Origin: Sipunculus nudus
Lineage: Eukaryota > Annelida > Sipuncula > Golfingiida > Sipunculidae
Assembly: GCA_026874595.1 (NCBI GenBank)
Contig: CM049311.1
Location: 67,212,453-67,276,452 of the forward strand
Length of the DNA: 64,000 nt
Direction of reading: 5' to 3'
The translations under genes and the position numbers were made by a program. The notes under the pieces are model-generated. The model had not been told where the DNA came from. It saw only the letters and a list, made by a program, of their open reading frames with translations, and did no database searches. This document shows, piece after piece, positions 9,108-62,740 of the stretch (its first letter is position 1; every line of letters starts with the position of its first letter).

Positions 9108-10130
9108 ATTTTGAACCGCCTCGTCTGGAAACCATTCCCTGATCTGCCCCTGTTGTTGTTGGTGTTATTATCAAAGATTCACATTCTTGTTTTAAGTGTG
9201 TGCACTTACGTGTGTGTTCGGTGTTAAGGTTGGAAAATATGTCTTAAAACCCAAAAATGTCTCCTTTTATCGACCATGGAAGTAATGTGATTCTCTCAAA
9301 TTAGTTTATTTCTTTATTTAATTAAACATAGAGGTACGATCATGGCTGCGTTATCATTATTATACGATCACACTTTATGTACTTGACAATAAATCATACG
9401 GTAATACATATGCCCACATAATCACCGCTACTCCAAAATTGATCGAGTTCGGTTCACGTCTGTTCGCAATGTTCTCTAAAACCGCTTTGTGTACAATAGT
9501 GTGCCTTACATAATTTTTAAGGTTATTATGCCAGTAGTGAGATAGGCGATATGAGAATAAATAACGTTTAATGTACATATAATTTTGAGTGATTTTTCCG
9601 TTTTTACGGACTAGCACAGTCAAACTGCCTAAGGCAATGACCGGACTGCGTGCATCGTTGTCTTTCAACCTCAAACACTACAATTGTTCATATGAATAAC
9701 GCTTGTTTTCAGTGAGGGATTAGGGACTGTCGGGCCTTTCATTTGAACGAGACTCTCACCCACGTGCGTGGTCAGTAAAAGAGAAAAACACATGTTTCTC
9801 GCTTTATGAAATGGAGAGTTCAACCCAGGAGGAATAATGACAAAACCTAATTCAAGGTCCCAGTTTCACGAACAGGCGTGGGGTGGGGTGGAGTGGTGTC
9901 TGGGGTTTCAGGCCTCAAAATTTGTCTGATACGATGAAAAACAATTGCGGCGGTTGAAAATGAATACGGGCCCTCTGCATGGAGTCCCGTAGGGTCCGCT
10001 TCTGCTACTTAAGAGTTATGCATATTTCTGTTTCTTACATCAGGAACAGTTTCCTTGCAAGATGCATTTAATAAATCTTTCATGTGTTCCTCACATCAAC
10101 CTAATCTTTATACGTCCACCGATAGAATCC
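9105..10130. other. No recognised gene
   Basis: A 99-codon minus-strand frame (9375-9674) has no ATG near its start and no splice evidence. Otherwise unique AT-rich DNA. Confidence 0.3.
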
Positions 10131-10140
10131 AGTCAAATAT

Positions 10141-10552
10141 CATCGAAACCTGAATGCCCCCCTGTTACGGGGTGACATAAAAGCGGACCGAACTGTCTCG
10201 CTAGTGGAGCTTGCTTTTCTAGCGAAGCGGTTGGTACGCCGGACTTGTGCGTCACCGACACGGGTTCGAATCCGGGTTCGGCCCAATGTTTTCCCCCCGA
10301 GCAATTTGCATTCGTAACAAAATGGGGGCTCGTCCAACGTGACGGTAAACTTTGTAGCCCAGGGAATAAGCTCAACAAAGTGTGACTCCTGGGATAATTA
10401 GTCTTGTTCTGATAGCAGAACGCTCTTAAGAGGGGGTGTGTTACGGGGTCACATGATAGCGTACCAAACTGTCTCGCTAGTGAAGCAAGGGTTGGTACGT
10501 CGGACTTGTGCGCTACCAACATGGGTTCGAATCCAGGATCGGCCCAATGTTT
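10141..10552 (+). repeat. Tandem pair of tRNA-like SINE units
   Basis: Two head-to-tail units each read GTTACGGGGT..., AACTGTCTCGCTAGTG, a box A-like AGCGAAGCGGTTGG (first unit), and a T-arm/box B GGGTTCGAATCC followed by TCGGCCCAATGTTTT. The box B copies (about 10261 and 10525) are roughly 264 bp apart. The joining segment carries CCCAGGGAATAAGCTCA and GATAGCAGAACGCTCTTAAG. The same arrangement recurs at 55260-55740, so the composite unit, not just the SINE head, is the mobile or amplified module. It is not a functional tRNA gene, because the acceptor stem does not close. Confidence 0.75.
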
Positions 10553-10559
10553 TCAAAGA

Positions 10560-11999: not shown

Positions 12000-14744
12000 T
12001 TGTGTTGTCAGTGGCTGGAAGTTTCCCTTTGAGCAAGCAGATAGAGAACAGATTTATCAAGATGATAATATGCATGTGTAGGTCCAGTTATTTACTTGCT
12101 TCTTTTATAGCTCACAGAGGGAAACATCATTTGTCTATTTTTATTGGTAACAAGCTAGGTCATTTATGTGAAAATATTAAACTTTTGTACATACGATCGA
12201 ATGGAATGAATTGTCTTGCAAAGTTATGTTTCAGAAATCCGTAAAGAGAACCAGGCTAAAGGAAGCATTGTCCAGGACTTTGTGAATTTGAGATGGCATA
12301 ACTGACATTGCCAATTTTGATCAAAGTTTTGTTGATTATTTCATCACTCAGCCTACAGTTGAGTGATATGTTTTTTTTACATTGATTCACCAGCTGTTTT
12401 TCTTGATTGTGTTCATTGTTAACACTTTTTCCAATAATGTACTCTCTTCTTACGAAATAAATATTATATATAAAGATATATATATATATATAAAACGAAT
12501 TTGTTCCTTGCACATGATAGGTGTTGTTAGAACGTATGCAAAAAAGCTTACGGTTAGGGGTCAAGTAACAGCGTACCTATAGGCCATGAAGCTTTGTTAA
12601 AATTACGAAAATATGTGCATTCTCATCGGTCCTCGATGCAAGACGTTAATTCATTCAGACGCTGGAATGTCAGAGGGCCGAAATGGCGCTACACGAGCTC
12701 TGTCAGTAACAGTTTATATATTCATCAGTCATCCCAAGGATTTTATTACAATAGGAATTCCAACTCGGAGTCTAGCCGTGTCGAATGTTGCTGACGGGGG
12801 TAATAAAACTCGCTACTCAAAGGCACAGAGAGATGCCGCTGATAAGCCCGGTGCTAATTGATACAGCCCGAGAATCCCACCCCACCCCCCTTTCGGCGTG
12901 ACTCATTAATTCCCGGAGACCCAAAGCGTGAAAAAAACGCTGTCTTGTCAATTAAGTTAGTTTCTCCTAGAATTTATCTCCTCCAGTATCTAATGTAAAT
13001 ATTAGAACAATCCTAAGTTTTAAAAATATATTTTCATATTAACATCGTGTGGCAAGAGAACGTGTTTGAAGCCGTCGTAGCTAATGACGCCTTGGCTATA
13101 TCTGGGCAGCGGTTAACATGGGCGATAATACGAGAATAATGCGCGAGAATAACGCACCAGTGACCCAGCGGGCGGAGGCTCAGAGTTATCAATAACATTG
13201 AAATATATTAGCACATGAACTGCATGACATTTTGTTATCCACAGAATAGTATAAAACAAAGCTAATTATAAATACCTGTCAGAAGTGTGAAGACTTATGT
13301 GAACTAATATAATTCCAAAATCTTTCATGGAAAATAAAGTTTACACTTTCCAGTCGTCCGTCATGTATTACGGCAGGTAATGATGCAGAGTCACCGCATC
13401 TGTCTCATATCGCTCCAGTGATTCCTTAACACGAGACCTCTCTAAATATACCAGTTGTGCATAATTTTTAACAAGCAAACGATCTGCGCATTCATATTTC
13501 TTGTTTATGTTATTCCAGTGATTTACTGCTCAGTTACTGGAAATATCGCTCTCGGCCTGACGAGCTTCAGCGGTCTGGGTCAGTAACCTCCAACAGCCTC
13601 GCTATATCGAAGGTCGTGCCGCGGCTGCGCCTGACACCGCGGTACAAAAGGCGCAAAATAGGGTTAATGGGCATATCATGTCTTAATTGCAATTAGCGCA
13701 TGACTAACACGCGAGTCCTGGCAGAGCTTTTCAAAGTTGGAACTCCATTTGTCATAAATTCCTTGGTCATTCTAATAACATATGGATCAAGATAATACAA
13801 CCTTACTAATAATCATCCCCATACAGCTAAGTTAGATGGAGTTTCACAGTTACGGCTTTAGGTATAACACTCTGTATTTAAAATTATTGATCTATTATTA
13901 CATATTTATGAACCATTAGGCGAAGTACAATAACACCGGGCAAACTCTGTTGACTGCTCCTTCAAGTTGAACAAATATACACGGGCGGGATCGCATCTCC
14001 ACAGCGCGTATCAATCAGCCACTTTAGCCAGAGTTAGGCCTTTATTAATTTAAACAGACCAGGTATACTGCTCGGGGTCAGAACCCACCTAATCAGTACA
14101 TGACCGACTAAGAACGCGGAGCTTAATGGGATTTTAAAATTTTACCAACGCGCTATAAATCTGCCGATTCAGCACATTTCGTATAGAGGTGTGTTAGTCC
14201 TCACGTTAAAGGTATGATCTCCTCACTCGTTTATCATAGCCCATTCCACTACCCATTCCACTACCAAAGTGTCCACTCAAGTTGGGCATTAATTTCATTA
14301 TACTTTCTTCTACCTTTTTGTATAGTTTACTGGTCGAGTTTTCAATGGACTTAAATAAAATTACTAATACATATCAGTTATCCCGAGAGGTATCAACATT
14401 TGTCGCTTACTCGGATGAAGTCACCCTTGAGAAGCCGGTCTCACTTTGTTATTTACTGTTATCTTCAATATTAAGACATTGTCCCAACAGCGACGGTCAA
14501 CGGGTTTACGCATACATGTGAACAACGGCCTTGAAAACACAGTAACACCAAAAACTATTATGTTTTATATAGCATTGATTTAATAGCAATTTTTCCTTAC
14601 TGTTTCCTTCAGGTTTCTAGTTTCATGTCCCTATCTCTCGTCGTGACTTTTTTTATATTTGGTAAAACTCCTTGAACTTTTAATATATGTTAAATGTTCA
14701 ATCTATTATTGGCCACCCCGTGTTGGTGCCGACTATAAAAGAAC
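12000..14744. other. No recognised gene; possible regulatory CpG blocks
   Basis: Mostly AT-rich. A (TA)n patch lies at 12474-12492. More GC-rich blocks at about 13070-13190 and 13540-13690 hold CpGs and, near 13683, TTAATTGCAATTAG, a homeodomain-type palindrome. Nothing here has paired splice sites. Confidence 0.3.
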
Positions 14745-14767
14745 CGCTCTGTAAATCCCCTATTTTA

Positions 14768-14905
14768 ACAGGGTAACACATGATCTTGTGTTAAAGACGT
14801 ATAACACAAGCTAATGTTGTGTTAACACAAACTTGTATTAATTACAGATCATTGAGTGCATAACACAAGGCCTTGTGTTATTTAAACACAAGGCCTTGTG
14901 TTAAT
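14768..14905. repeat. Left ACACAAG/CTTGTGT palindrome cluster
   Basis: Contains repeated CTTGTGTTAA/TTAACACAAG words, including two copies of AACACAAGGCCTTGTGTT separated by about 5 bases (around 14861-14900), each a near-perfect hairpin. Confidence 0.85.
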
Positions 14906-15481
14906 TGGGTGGTCACAATGGACCCGTTCGGGCCTTTCCCCATTAATCCGTATCAATATTATAACACTGAAACAATTTCGTCAAGCGGTTAGTCAAAATC
15001 ACGATCGACTAAGTTGTTCGCCATTAGAGGCAGGAAAGATGAACTCGACTACTGGACGAGCGGAGATAGTCGAAAGGGCTAATTTGACCTCAGCCACTGA
15101 AGCGCGCCAACTTGTCTTGACTACTGCCCACTGTGCTGTCCAGCCACGCGATGTTTACTGTCACAGCCCTGCTTCAGAAAGGACAACAAATCTGTTTTGC
15201 CAGCTAAAATCAAGCCTTGTTCTTCTGAATTTGTGAGTATATTATATGTCATTGTAGATACCACTGCATGAGTTTAAAGGTTTTTCTTCTAAATGGTAAA
15301 AATGATCTAACTGAGCAACATTATTTTAGCCTTACGTGCCAATATCCTCTCAATATCGCTCAGATGGCACATAAAATGTATATAATGCACTAGACGTATA
15401 TTTTATACGTATAAAATTATTTCAATGTTCCCCGAAACCATCACTAAAACTTTGAATTATAATTAGCAGATTATTTTACAG

Positions 15482-15878
15482 ATGCCAGAGCTTGTGCCGT
15501 TCGATCTGCTGGTAACACAGCATCTTCTTGGTGAAAAAAATGACTCTATATTTAGAAGGTAAGTCATCAGGTATGATCGAAGACTATACTATTACTAGAT
15601 TTTTCTAATAACTATATATAGGCAAACATTAATGAGATTAACCTAGCATTTCTTCAAGTTGATTTCGAGGGGATATATGATCAACAGAAAAAAAATACAT
15701 TTGAATGATGATAGCCATATCAGTACATATTTATTTACAGACCAATTTTTTTCTCATTGTTATATACTGGATAATAAATATTGTTTTTTAAACGCCCTCT
15801 AAAAACATTTACACATAGTATATGTCACTGTGAATTATAATTCTCTAACTGATACTTCATTATACATACATATAAATA

Positions 15879-15970
<92 letters not shown>

Positions 15971-16381
15971 AATAACCATGAAAACAAAACATGTTAATAT
16001 AGAAATTCCCTTCCATTCGTTTATGGTTTCGGAGGAGGATGCAGAGGAGACTGAAGTGTGCATCAAGTATGAAGGTGATATTAACAAGGCTGGAAATGTC
16101 AGCATCATCATGGATGGGATGCAGGTTGCTGAGTGTGCAGACAGAAACATACAAACCATGAACTGTAAACAACATGGAACAAGGTATTTAATGATGTAAC
16201 TGACATTGTGAAATTTCACTTCGATCCATTCTGGGTGGACATTCATAACTATTTCTTATTTATAAATACATAATTTCTGGTGAAAAGCATGTTTATATAT
16301 TTATCCATTTTATGAGATCCATAATTTCTTTTATTTTCTTTGTACTGCAGATTTAATGGTTACCTAGACACTGATAAATAG
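15482..16381 (+). CDS. Three-exon gene, 106-residue protein of unknown function
   Basis: Exon 15482-15558 follows ATTATTTTACAG and begins with ATG (MPELVPFDLLVTQHLLGE...). Its donor is AGAAG/GTAAGT. Exon 15971-16183 follows TTATTATTCAG and ends ACAAG/GTATTT. Exon 16351-16378 plus stop (16379-16381) follows TTTGTACTGCAG and ends FNGYLDTDK. Both introns are phase 2 and the frame is kept across both, giving 106 residues. The middle part is acidic (VSEEDAEETEVCIKYEGD). It holds three Cys (VCIKYEG, AECADR, MNCKQHG) and no membrane segment. A possible upstream non-coding or longer first exon ends at 15232 with a strong GTGAGT donor in a compatible phase, although a stop (15098) blocks extension there. 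No family is recognised. The gene lies wholly inside the TIR element 14745-17180, with an (ATT)n tract in intron 1. Confidence 0.6.
15881..15967. repeat. (ATT)n microsatellite in intron
   Basis: About 85 bp of ATT triplets with one AATT slip, ending directly at the 3' splice site TATTATTCAG of the exon at 15971. Confidence 0.95.
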
Positions 16382-16741
16382 CAGCGTAATTTGCATTGGA
16401 CCAACAAGTAATACTTTCAATTACATTTTCATTTGCAAACAAATCCTAAAATACCTACCTGTAGCTGGTTTTCTTCCATGCTTAACTTTAAAAGTTACTA
16501 TTCAGCCACTGATTTTATTTTGTTCCCTGAACATATCAGCAACAGGACATATTGGCACATGCACTTGTAGACAATTACGTGACCTAACGCTTGTTTATAT
16601 ATCAAGTTCTGTAACATAAGTGTTGTACTTTATTCTTAATACAACAAACTCATTTGATAACAACATTTTTTTTTCTATTTTTTTATTCTGATGCACATGG
16701 TGTTTGGTTAATTGAGTCCTATATTAAAGTAAACCTTTTGT

Positions 16742-17170
16742 CAAAACAACACAAGTTACTTGTGTTAAATATAATACAAGAATATGTACGAATAACAAAA
16801 TATCTTGTGTTTATTTAACACAAAAATCTGTAACATCTAACACAAATTTGTTTTACCTTTAACAATAGTCTATTGTGTTAATTTAATACAAGATTGTTTT
16901 ACATTGTAACACAACTAGATTGTGTTATTACAACACAAGATTGTGATACCTTTAACACAAGTATCTTGTGTTAAATTAGTATCTTGTGTTTAATTAACAC
17001 AAGAACATGTTACATTTAACACAAGAGACGTGTTATATTTAACCCAATCTAATGTAAAACTGGGTTTGACACAAGTTCTTGTGTTGTTTTAACACAATGA
17101 TGCCGTTCATATAAGACACAAGCACTTGCGTTCGAGGAACACAAGTTTGTGTTATTTTTAACACAAGGGG
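16742..17170. repeat. Right ACACAAG/CTTGTGT palindrome cluster
   Basis: About 430 bp in which AACACAAG or CTTGTGTT occurs every 15-30 bp in alternating orientation, mirroring the left cluster. Spacing is irregular, so it is a motif cluster, not a strict tandem repeat. Confidence 0.85.
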
Positions 17171-17180
17171 ATTTAGAGTG

Positions 17181-18300
17181 CGGATGTGGGTAGATCTCAT
17201 TAGTTTCACTTAATTAAAGGATCAGGAATGTTCACTTTCTACTTTGATTAAATGAATAATTTACTTTCAAGATCACCCGATGTGTACTTTCTTTCTTTAG
17301 TTTCAGAACTGTGCTTAATGTATTAAAGACCGATATATTTAATCATGATAACGAATAAATGAGAGAACGGATGAACAAACGAAGAGTGAACGAATGAATA
17401 AATGAATGAATAAACGAACGAAGGCATGAACGAAAAAACGGACAAGTAAAAGGAAGGGACAACAACAACAAAAGAGATGGAACGAATAGCTGTAAGAATG
17501 AAGACATGCAAGAGCGGGTGGACGAACGGGCGAATGAAGGAAGGAACGGGCCAATGAATGAATGAACGAACTAGAAATCTGCATGCTTAGGAAAGCAAGC
17601 CTTCGCCATGTGTGCGTGTGCGTTGGAGAGGCCCATATTGTGGGATGCCCCCTAAACAGTGTTTGCATTCACTTCTTTGACCCATATTTCCAGGTTCATT
17701 CGTGCATAAGTGACAGTACATTTGTTAATATTCTCTGATGTGGTTCCTGTAACCGGATCGTGTGCCGGGATTCACGCCAAAATCTAATCGATTCTCCATT
17801 ATTCCATTCCCAGAATGTCCTGAAAATTTTGGAGATTTCTTTTATGATTGGGCGAATTATGATGTGAGCAAACACACAAACAGACACAAACATGAACGGG
17901 GGATGAACGAACACCCTCCCTAGTGAGGCAATGAATGAATGAACGACGGAAGGTACGAACGAAAAGACTATCGAACGAACTTAAGGGATTTATTGTTCCT
18001 AACCAAATAACTGCCATGACCCTTTAACTTTTATTGGCAAATCTTATACACGCAAATGCATATTCAGCAATGTTGTGTAAACACAAAATGTATATAGCCA
18101 TATTTTTCAGTTTTTAAGCCCCAAACATTTTCTCGGTATGAGTCTGGTTCACTGAAACACTGTATGTTCAGTGACATCGTTAAAATGCTAATAAATAATT
18201 TAAGCCACGTAGATAATACCCCTGACATGTAATTCCGTTAAGCCCTGGGAATTCAAATTGTAATTGTAACTCACGCTGCCTCCGCAAGGCTTACATTTTT
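17181..18300. repeat. Degenerate (GAAN)n low-complexity region
   Basis: GAAC/GAAT tetranucleotide repeats dominate 17350-17575 and reappear at 17925-17985. The minus-strand Phe/Ser/His-rich frames are their translations. The remainder is unique with no exon recognised. Confidence 0.7.
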
Positions 18301-26215: not shown

Positions 26216-26222
26216 TATTCTA

Positions 26223-26755
26223 GTTTATGACGTCACTACTATTGTTATCTGTAGGTTCTGGTTTATGACGTCACTACTATTGTATTCTGTATGTTCTGGT
26301 TTATGTCGTCACTACTATTGTAATCTGTATATTCTGGTTTATGTCGTCGCTACTATTGTAATCGGTATATTATGGTTTATGACGTCACAACTATTGTATT
26401 CTGTATGTTCTGGTTTATGTCGTTACTATTATTGTATTCTGTAAGTTCTGGTTTATGTCGTCACTACTATTGTTATCTGTATATTCTGGTTTATGACGTC
26501 ACTACTATTGTATTCTGTATGTTCTGGTTTATGTCGTCACTACTATTGTAATCGTTATATTCTGGTTTATGTCGTCGCTACTATTGTAATCTGTATATTA
26601 TGGTTTATGACGTCACAACTATTGTATTCTGTATGTTCTGGTTTATGTCGTTACTATTATTGTATTCTGTATGTTCTGGTTTATGTCGTCACTACTATTG
26701 TAATCTGTATATTCTGGTTTATGTCGTCACTGCTATTGTAATCTGTATGTCCTTG
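26223..26755. repeat. 38-bp minisatellite with TGACGTCA core and 228-bp higher order
   Basis: About 14 units of GTTTATG(A/T)CGTCACTACT... ATTGTATTCTGTATGTTCTG, 38 bp each. Five units keep the perfect CRE palindrome TGACGTCA; others read TGTCGTCA, TGTCGTCG or TGTCGTTA. A variant unit (GACGTCACAACTATTG) occurs at 26381 and 26609, 228 bp apart, so six-unit blocks were duplicated. The repetitive Cys/Tyr/Val frames come from the repeat. Confidence 0.9.
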
Positions 26756-27739: not shown

Positions 27740-27893
27740 CAGTGGTGTGACTAACTTGAGGTGTGATTAACTTGAGGTGTGAATATTTGAGGTGTGACTA
27801 ACTTGAGGTGTGACTAACTTGAGGTGTCACTTACTTCAGGTGTGACTAACTTCAGGTTTGACTAACTTCAGGTGCGATTAACTTGGGCCGCCT
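27740..27893. repeat. 16-bp minisatellite with AGGTGTGA word
   Basis: About nine units of ACTTGAGGTGTGACTA with small variations. Five units contain the exact T-box half-site word AGGTGTGA in one orientation. Confidence 0.9.
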
Positions 27894-38110: not shown

Positions 38111-38462
38111 AGTTAGTCTTTGATATGACTCAAGTTAGTCTTTGACATGACTCTAGTTAGTCTATGACATGACTCTAGTTAGTCTTTGACATAACTCTAG
38201 TTAGTCTTAGATATGACTCTAGTTAGTCTTTGATATGACTAAAGTTAGTCTTTGATATGACTCTAGTTAGTCTTTGGTATGACTCAAGTTAGTCTTTGAT
38301 ATGACTCAAGTTTTTGATATGACTCAAGTTAGTCTTTGATATGACTCAAGTTAGTCTTTGATATGACTCAAGTTAGTCTTTGGTATGACTCGAGTTAGTC
38401 TTTGACATGACTCTATTTAGGCTTTGATATGGCTCTAGTTAGTCTTTGATATGACTCGCTCG
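38111..38462. repeat. 22-bp minisatellite with TGACTCA word
   Basis: About 16 units of TAGTCTTTGATATGACTCAAGT or close variants (GACTCTAGT, GACTAAAGT, GACATGACT). Several consecutive units contain TGACTCA, the AP-1 consensus. A stray partial unit sits at 38570. Confidence 0.9.
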
Positions 38463-48979: not shown

Positions 48980-49953
48980 GATTTTATAAGCAGTTGTTAG
49001 AATCATGGAATATATTTAGAGAAAAGTGTGTTAATGAGGTAGTCATGAATCAGTCATTATGGATTGATAAAAACATTCGATGTGGAGGAAAGACAATATT
49101 CTATAAAGATTTTTATGAAAAAAATATAATTTCTGTGCAAGATATTGTTAGTAATTCTAATTTTTTAAGCTTCGAGGAAGCTAAATTAAAATATGGTTTG
49201 AAAAATGGATATTATCTAAGATATCATGCAATGTTGACTGCAATACCAAGTAACTGGAAACAATTTGTTTCAGACATTGGTAATGTAAAGGATATCAAAG
49301 AACGAAATGTACTTGATACTGTTATAGGCCAATTAGATTTGTATAAATGTAGGACAAGAGATTTTTATGAAACGGCAATATCCATTGAATATGAACCCCC
49401 GTCAGCAGTATCCAAATGGGAAAAGGTATATTGTGATTTGGATTGGGATTCTGTTTTCACGTTAGCTTTTAAATGAGTAAAAGATACCAGGATACAAACT
49501 CTTCAGTTTAAAATATTAACATAAATTTTTCCTTGTAATCTTAAGTTATTCCAGTGGCATATTGTTCATTCACCAAGATGCAACCATTGCTACGAGATGG
49601 ATTCAATAGAACACTACTTTACTGAATGTGATACTGTTAAAATATTTTGGAGCTCATTTCAGTCTTGGTGGCGAAATATAACTACTTGTTACTTTCATTT
49701 AAAAGGGAGAGATATTATATTTGGGGTGTTTGATGTTGAAAGCATCATGATCAAAGCTCTGAATTACTGTCTACTAATGGCAAAGAGATATATATATGCT
49801 GCGAAATATTCAGGAAAATGTTTATTCTTTTTAGAATACTTACAGGACCTTAAATACAGGTTAGAAACTGATATTTACATAGAAAACTGTAAATTAAAGA
49901 AAAATATGGAGAGTATAGATATATTAATGTATGTCTATTTGAATCTGTGAATG
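48931..49953 (+). pseudogene. LINE ORF2 C-terminus, two stops
   Basis: One frame runs from the foldback end to the stop after 49950. It encodes post-RT sequence of a LINE polyprotein: LPRFYKQLLESW (about residues 16-27), a middle alpha/beta stretch, VKDTRIQTLQFKILT just after the first stop, and a CCHC zinc-binding-like cluster CNHC...H...C with FW after it. TGA at 49474 and TAA at 49522 prevent a full product. The protein would normally supply reverse transcription and target-primed integration; only its tail is present here. Confidence 0.85.
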
Positions 49954-55259: not shown

Positions 55260-55740
55260 AAACTCTTTGTATCCCAGGGAATAAGCTCACCTAAGTGTGA
55301 CTCCTGGGATATTTTGTCTTGTTCTGATAGCAGAATGCTCTAAGAGGGGGTGTGTCACGGGGAGACATAAATGCGGACTGAACTGTCTCGCCAACAAAGC
55401 TTGCTTCGCTATCGAAGCGGTTGGTACGCCGGACTTGTGCGCCAACGACATGGATTCGAATCCCGGATAGGCCTAGTATTTTCTTTTGAAAAATGTGTCT
55501 TCATAACAAAACATGGTGGCTTGTCCAACGTGACGATAAATCTTTGTGGCCCAGGGAATAAGCTCACAAAATTTTCACTCCTTGGATAATTAGGCTTGTT
55601 TTGATAGCAGAACGCTCTTAAGAGGGGGTGTATTACGGGGCGACATAAAAGCGGACCGAACTGTTTTGTTAGGGTACGCCGGACTTACGCGCCACCGTTA
55701 TGGGTTCGAATCCCGGATCGGCCCAATGTTGTCCCCTGAA
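55260..55740 (+). repeat. Second tandem pair of tRNA-like SINE units
   Basis: Same composite unit as at 10141-10552: CCCAGGGAATAAGCTCA, GATAGCAGAA..GCTC, CACGGGG(A)GACATAAA, GCGGTTGGTACGCCGGACTT, then box B GGATTCGAATCCC (about 55452) and GGGTTCGAATCCC (about 55703), 251 bp apart. Confidence 0.75.
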
Positions 55741-61924: not shown

Positions 61925-62740
61925 TAACATTATACATATTACCTCCTATTAGTTTTATCCAACATTTGATCATTCTTTTAATCAGGTTTTAAGAGGGCAT
62001 TCTACCTAATTTCCCGTTGAAATTTTGCTGTGATTCTACTTACCCCGAGTAAATTAAAAAAAAAACATTTTTCTGTGGTCCAAATTCTGGAACCCCCAGA
62101 TTTCAGTACCATATAGTAGGATTTGTATCTTTATTGCATCAAACAGTTCACAATTGCATTGTGTTTAGACTGTACATAGCTAACATAGCTGACCTGTTTA
62201 CTTACGGCTTTGTGGAACAAACCGTTAAAATTTAATGTGGTACCCAGAAAAGCATAGTCATCAACTACCTTCAGTGTGTCATTTCCAAAAAAAAGTTGTG
62301 TTCGGCCTGACTTTATCTTAAAGTAGATAGCCACTTTAGTCTTACGAGTATTAACTGTGAGGTACCATTTGTTCAAATAATTGTTTTCAGCAGTCAGAGC
62401 TGTCTGTAGTTCTTTAGCTGTCTCAGTCATTACAAATATGTCACCGGCATATAGTAATACATGTATTCTAAGAAATACTTCTATGCCATCATTACTGAGA
62501 CTACCTCTTATTTTGTTGGCAACAAAACCCAGACCTCTATAACTGCGACTTATAGAACACTCGAAGTCATTTATATATATAGCTATATAGCAATGAGTAA
62601 TGGCGACAGGTTTTCACCCTGACGCAAACCAATATTGCAAGTGAAGAAGTCAACATTTTCCTAATTTTTTACATTACTTAATTTTTTTGCATTGTTGTAC
62701 ATATTGTAAATTACAGCATTAATGCGTCTGATGTTCGTCT
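61925..62740 (-). mobile_element. Degenerate LINE reverse transcriptase, YADD changed to YAGD
   Basis: Reading leftward on the minus strand: NIGLRQGENLSPLL (about 62590-62640), matching the QGxxLSPLL motif; then after a frameshift INDFE; LLYAGDIF (about 62435-62455), where the catalytic YADD has Asp to Gly; ETAKELQ...LNKWYLTVNTRKTKV; VVDDYAFLGTTLN; and beyond 62131 ILLYGTEIWGFQ with LLGVSR, typical of the thumb and post-RT region. Stops and frameshifts occur, so it is inactive. The open part is 62131-62430. Confidence 0.8.

Follow-up and report, generated by a model that had tools for sequence, protein, structure and literature searches.

A probable nested non-autonomous CMC transposon carrying a decayed non-transposase gene in the genome of Sipunculus nudus

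The element at positions 14,747–17,180 of the 64-kb stretch of Sipunculus nudus DNA analysed here (the window) is best read, with a probability of about 0.85, as a nested non-autonomous CMC (CACTA/EnSpm-Mirage-Chapaev) transposon with a decayed non-transposase gene of a second lineage. The window element is one copy of an ordinary animal transposon type. From position 14,965 it would contain a deletion derivative of one lineage (B), reduced to its 5′ half, within the ends of another (A), the latter recognizable by CACTGTAAATCCCC termini and AACACAAG arrays. The chimera would have multiplied as a unit through the A-specific ends, with 2-bp target duplications that prefer TA.

The element is bordered by CG on either side (Table 1). 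Its imperfect terminal inverted repeats, proposed in the preliminary description, were borne out: CWCTSTAAATCCCCT starts at 14,747 on the forward strand and at 17,180 on the reverse strand, and the 18-mer at 14,744–14,761, which includes the flanking CCG, shows two mismatches. No other 18-mer of the reverse complement of the window came within five mismatches of the left end, and in 400 shuffled versions of the end zones (local Markov model) the match was never as close as two mismatches. The termini of the family are CACTGTAAATCCCC and CACTCTAAATCCCC; the left end of the window copy differs by one change (CTCTG). The mirrored subterminal arrays described earlier were likewise confirmed. The element holds 20 of the 24 ACACAAG/CTTGTGT words of the 64-kb window, and the two subterminal zones contain 19 words, compared with a local Markov mean of 0.38 and a maximum of 4 in 2000 shuffles. 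Many of the words are paired as palindromic dyads, AACACAAG-N2/3-CTTGTGTT. In the family consensus, the half-site centres alternate between strands at distances of mostly 10–11 and 13 bp, with a period of about 23 bp. The arrays of the window element extend over about 130 bp (left) and 420 bp (right). The right array adjoins the terminal repeat and the ends are fixed across the family, so the words belong to an element with a fixed boundary rather than to scattered ACACAAG low-complexity DNA. Within the family, divergence in motif columns versus other array columns was 3.33% versus 2.87% on the left and 2.74% versus 3.80% on the right. The difference is not consistent, and motif conservation therefore lends no support to binding.

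Table 1 Features of the transposon in the window (positions are those of the window)
Feature	Position	Strand	Basis or remark
Target-site duplication, 2 bp (CG), left copy	14745..14746	.	Window sequence; identical 2-bp flanks in 19/21 aligned copies
Target-site duplication, 2 bp (CG), right copy	17181..17182	.	Window sequence; aligned copies
Left terminal inverted repeat CTCTGTAAATCCCC; family form CACTGTAAATCCCC	14747..14760	+	
Right terminal inverted repeat CACTCTAAATCCCC	17167..17180	-	
Outer (A-lineage) left end	14747..14964	+	Consensus 79–82% identical to L080 and L082 left ends
Left subterminal array, AACACAAG/CTTGTGTT dyads	14772..14904	.	
B-lineage segment carrying the gene remnant	14964..16144	+	72–74% identical to L066–L068 overall, 76–81% by piece
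Relict left terminus CACTGAAACAATTTCGTC of nested B-lineage element	14965..14982	+	Cf. CACTGAAAACATAGGTTCGTC in L066–L068
Remnant of exon TDARVCAVLLGTQQLLGEKTDSIFKK, frameshifted in the window; donor GTAAGT kept	15482..15558	+	
(ATT)n microsatellite, intron-internal	15880..15967	.	
Last-exon remnant (VQEE..VCIKYEGDIxKAxNVSIIMDGMQVAECA)	16026..16144	+	C-terminal part (..LYVFNVxxP..) lost
Right subterminal array, AACACAAG/CTTGTGTT dyads, period ~23 bp	16748..17166	.	

A search of the 1.43-Gb genome (153 contigs) with the element as query gave 97 candidates, of which 40 were scored, with 133 matches. The genome holds dozens of copies, and in each main copy the longest piece shares 82–89% identity with the window. 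Thirty-five copies (L031–L065) were fetched, together with three distant matches (L066–L068). For alignment, 21 of the 35 copies with both ends in the fetched stretch were picked by eye; the 14 left out were partial, had the right end outside the stretch, or carried large insertions or deletions (L042, L048 and L057). The 21 copies lie 2.5–7.0% from their majority consensus, and the window copy 5.4%. An identical 2-bp flank was found in 19 of them (12 TA, 5 CA, 1 TG and 1 TT), the exceptions being L043 and L047, whereas control 2-mers 10 bp farther outward were identical in 5/21. L034 and L050 represent one event, because their flanks are common to both. A 3-bp direct duplication was seen in none of the 21 aligned copies. 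In other family copies, L041, L045, L049 and L055, the right end is missing from the fetched stretch; the homology of the last three ends near one place, around element position 1775, and they perhaps form a variant class. Inspection by eye of the 3.8-kb insert of L042 for a transposase showed three ORFs of 80 or more codons (86, 91 and 138), each on the minus strand.

Comparison with elements outside the family points to a composite structure. L080 and L082 have the same outer ends with another interior, matching the consensus at 1–217/221 and about 2272–2555, and L081 matches it at the left end only. None of these three showed a match to the transposase or second gene described below at E 0.001, and in L080 and L082 the flanking dinucleotides (CA/TA and AA/TA, respectively) form no clear 2-bp duplication. 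The B-lineage elements L066–L068 are 94–96.5% alike over 2.2 kb, have sharp CACTGAAAACATA ends with target duplications of TA, CT and TA, and carry GTTAGTC/GTTCGTC as subterminal words. At 14,965 the window reads CACTGAAACAATTTCGTCAAGCGGTTAGTC, matching the B-lineage end CACTGAAAACATAGGTTCGTCAAGCGGTTAGTC. The left-end homology to L080 and L082 reaches consensus position 217–221, B homology starts at 218, and L082 runs on from ..CAATATTATAA into its own interior. Because the homology on the left stops where B starts, an A-lineage element most likely received an insertion of a B-lineage derivative. The junction of the nest was located on the left side only. We infer that the 3′ half of the nested element was lost and that the chimera then spread, in that order.

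The window contains several other repeats. Two minisatellites, at 38,111–38,457 (22-bp unit AGTTAGTCTTTGATATGACTCA, 16 copies) and 27,744–27,885 (16-bp unit GGTGTGACTAACTTGA, nine copies), include GTTAGTC/GACTAAC, the B-lineage subterminal word. A search of the window for CACTGAAAA, the terminus of a two-gene element described below, found none, and the sole TTTTCAGTG lies at 9706, far from these minisatellites. A third minisatellite (26,218–26,750) consists of 14 copies of a 38-bp unit, and a dispersed repeat is present in two copies of about 80% identity (10,163–10,554 and 55,353–55,733). Two segments are likely fragments of non-LTR retrotransposons, both with Pfam scores below cut-off: 62,134–62,613 on the minus strand (RVT_1, E 7.6e-7, 29.5 vs 29.6 bits) and 49,525–49,947 on the plus strand (zf-RVT, E 0.001, 20.1 vs 27.5 bits). 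Scanning the window with Rfam, at the gathering threshold, and for tRNAs detected nothing.

Between the arrays, a 106-codon spliced gene unlike any transposase had been proposed. The latter point holds, the sequence being the remnant of a second, non-transposase gene; the gene as drawn has splice-like signals but does not survive comparison with its relatives. Its third-exon codon at 16,029–16,031 is TAG in 20 of the 22 aligned rows, AAG in one, and TCG solely in the window copy, and L032, L039 and L046 are frameshifted besides. In L070 and L071, where the acceptor TTTTTAAG precedes GTTCAG, the homologous exon would begin (borders inferred from sequence) downstream of the stretch read as MKTKHVNIEIPFHSF, which therefore falls within their intron. 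MPELVPFD, the first eight residues, is read in a frame different from that of the exon TDARVCAVLLGTQQLLGEKTDSIFKK in the relatives, and the second exon is shifted in frame against its counterparts. Divergence from the family consensus is nearly the same in exon-like parts (3.9–4.1%) as in intron-like parts (4.2–5.0%), so there is no clear protein-level constraint within the family. The 106-residue protein matched no Pfam family, and PDB gave only E 1.2 or worse. In viral contigs, the exon-3 peptide had seven pattern matches with no relative by tblastn, and a DNA pattern had 22 matches, approximately the number expected by chance on a rough estimate. It is highly improbable that the 106 residues are a working, novel element-encoded protein, even though the frame of the window copy is open through 16,029–16,031. 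Judged from the sequence, the window copy yields no working protein, and its gene represents a degraded part of a gene with several exons.

By protein search, the exon was detected in the window family and in more distant places. Larger copies on contigs C4 and C5 hold further exons; the former has a B-lineage left end and the latter a B-lineage right end. The last exon (..VCIQYTG..LFVYNIEYPEKCKHSLSFF..) is intact in a copy on C7 (80.69 Mb), whereas the window family keeps its first part only. Between lineages, differences at codon positions 1, 2 and 3 numbered 6, 5 and 16 for A_C5/B_C4 and 32, 23 and 54 for A_C5/C_C7. These differences are mostly at third positions, and the ancestral gene was therefore working. 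In a search with the C7 gene (140 of 152 candidates scored), at least 12 loci shared the same 134-codon exon match and at least eight also the last exon. The second gene forms a further repeated subfamily at C13:48713194, C6:10235699, C2:52463089 and C3:27201772, the first two of which score identically. The second-gene exons tested against Pfam remained below cut-off, the best being DUF5537 (E 0.0003, 21 vs 28.4 bits) and ANK_LRRK2 (E 0.005). In its YPT..QY and ..YVFNVEYP.. motifs, the gene may resemble the SAMD3-like genes that are repeated in fish and invertebrates. Sequence of the gene accompanies the family's ends in many copies, as a search with both was expected to show if the gene travels with them. 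Whether the protein is single-copy and conserved outside these ends received a mixed answer: the gene is multi-copy and also lies within other ends, and these ends also occur without it.

One homologue belongs to an element of 12,111 bp at C7:34210591-34222701 (L079:6892 to L077:9202), which has CACTGAAAA.. termini with imperfect inverted repeats (five mismatches in 21) and a TG duplication. This element contains an 823-aa frame with, in order, DDF (294), ADN (387), CRTC (C-x2-C; 408), HFLIH (H-x3-H; 616) and FEAKH (639). CMC clade transposases carry C(2)C and H(3-4)H ahead of the last E (PMC12730594). The best Pfam matches of the frame, tnp2/Transposase_21 (PF02992; E 0.0009, 18.9 vs 28.6 bits) and DUF4218 (E 0.069), are below cut-off. 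A_C5, B_C4 and C_C7, searched with this frame, gave no match at E 0.001. Exons of the second gene lie downstream of this frame within the same termini; the last is 27–28% identical to those of other lineages. Relative to this homologue the third-position excess is weaker (46, 41 and 60 for A_C5; 52, 46 and 56 for B_C4; 54, 38 and 68 for C_C7). At least 12 loci share the exon match, and two fetched loci of the two-gene element are 99.87% identical over 9,192 bp; the element has therefore spread recently. It is apparently autonomous. In the titles and abstract openings surveyed, which are not exhaustive, no such second gene or two-gene arrangement was described in animals, and the passages of PMC4158355 and PMC3485254 consulted do not bear on the arrangement.

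These homologues bear on the origin of the gene, which the preliminary description attributed either to gene capture or to an unfamiliar element-encoded protein. An element-borne origin stands and the intact 106-residue product does not. A host gene may instead have been captured by the non-autonomous element (transduplication), the same host family being captured again by others. Such capture is favoured by the locus C7:80689404, whose last exon is intact and where the 823-aa transposase found no match within the 10.6 kb examined; it has a sibling at C7:38328156, 88% alike in the last exon, and both could be host genes. The third-position excess between lineages also implies that a working gene existed. 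However, one homologue is enclosed by the termini of an element in which the transposase frame is also present, two such loci are nearly identical, the exon matches recur at many loci, and the gene is found in B-lineage elements and at least one further repeated subfamily. Several independent captures are a less simple explanation than one element gene. Host capture is thus less likely, since homologues of the gene occur in other CMC lineages, one of them together with a transposase frame, and we give it about the weight of an outside chance.

The assignment of the nested element to CMC rests on several traits. CA..TG (CACT-type) inverted termini are present (CACTGTAAATCCCC and CACTCTAAATCCCC), and the 2-bp duplication of 19/21 copies falls within the range of 2–5 bp given for CMC in PMC12730594. 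A DDE transposase bearing C(2)C and H(3-4)H is missing from the window element; the motifs occur in order in the related 12.1-kb element, with Pfam tnp2 below cut-off. Of the traits of plant-type CACTA/EnSpm elements, subterminal arrays in both orientations are present and the 3-bp duplication is absent (0/21). Of those of animal TRC (SmTRC1-like) elements, the 2-bp duplication is present and the CCC core is absent, the termini beginning with CACTG. Against the CMC reading count that no AACACAAG-ended element with its own transposase was among the elements recovered, that Transposase_21 is below cut-off, that the duplication is 2 bp rather than 3 bp, and that L080, L082 and 2/21 copies lack a clear duplication. 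TA is the commonest duplication (12/21), as would be expected of a TA-targeting element of another superfamily, such as a Harbinger-type element with TA duplications or Tc1/mariner. However, the termini are CACTG..CAGTG/GAGTG, CA, TG, TT and CG duplications are used too, and the transposase frame of the related two-gene element is of CMC type; membership outside CMC is therefore improbable. The CMC/CMCT clade comprises EnSpm, Mirage, Chapaev, Transib and ESTA, and ESTA, described from fungi, has TA duplications (PMC12730594).

As a CMC transposon, the nested element can be compared with better-known systems. En/Spm of maize and Tgmt* of soybean are alike in their short CACT-type terminal repeats and asymmetric subterminal arrays in both orientations; Tgmt* has four repeats in 159 bp on the left and 24 in 732 bp on the right, against about 130 and 420 bp here. 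They also resemble the elements described here in encoding a second product beside the tnp2 transposase, there DNA-binding (TNPA), and in having deletion derivatives that are mobile in trans, as would be the case here (PMC2613891). Unlike En/Spm and Tgmt*, our family has a 2-bp rather than a 3-bp duplication, its second gene belongs to no named family above cut-off, and the window element has no working gene. SmTRC1 and other animal TRC elements are animal CACTA relatives with a Transposase_21-type transposase, 2-bp target duplications and further products from the same element; their termini differ from the CACTG ends found here in having a CCC core (PMC1636069).

In maize, TNPA binds the subterminal repeats of En/Spm and is needed together with TNPD for transposition (PMC2613891). 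By analogy, the second-gene protein may be TNPA-like and bind the subterminal arrays. The termini, the 2-bp duplications and the transposase frame of the related element suggest that a CMC transposase acting in trans would cut at the CACTG ends; an element-encoded accessory protein, like TNPA, would bind the arrays and bring the ends together. More speculatively, the CMC transposons of this genome might share a conserved TNPA-like second gene whose protein recognises lineage-specific arrays (GTTAGTC vs AACACAAG) and changes along with them; the window element would then be a natural end swap. We regard this as possible and rather doubtful; if true, the recognition arrays of one lineage would have been placed round the gene of the other.

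An odd-looking element is thus settled, in all probability, as a nested non-autonomous CMC transposon, and it illustrates how a reading frame that is open but dead can pass for a captured gene. The comparison has also brought to light a two-gene CMC element, amplified recently, whose second protein is a candidate for binding of the subterminal arrays.
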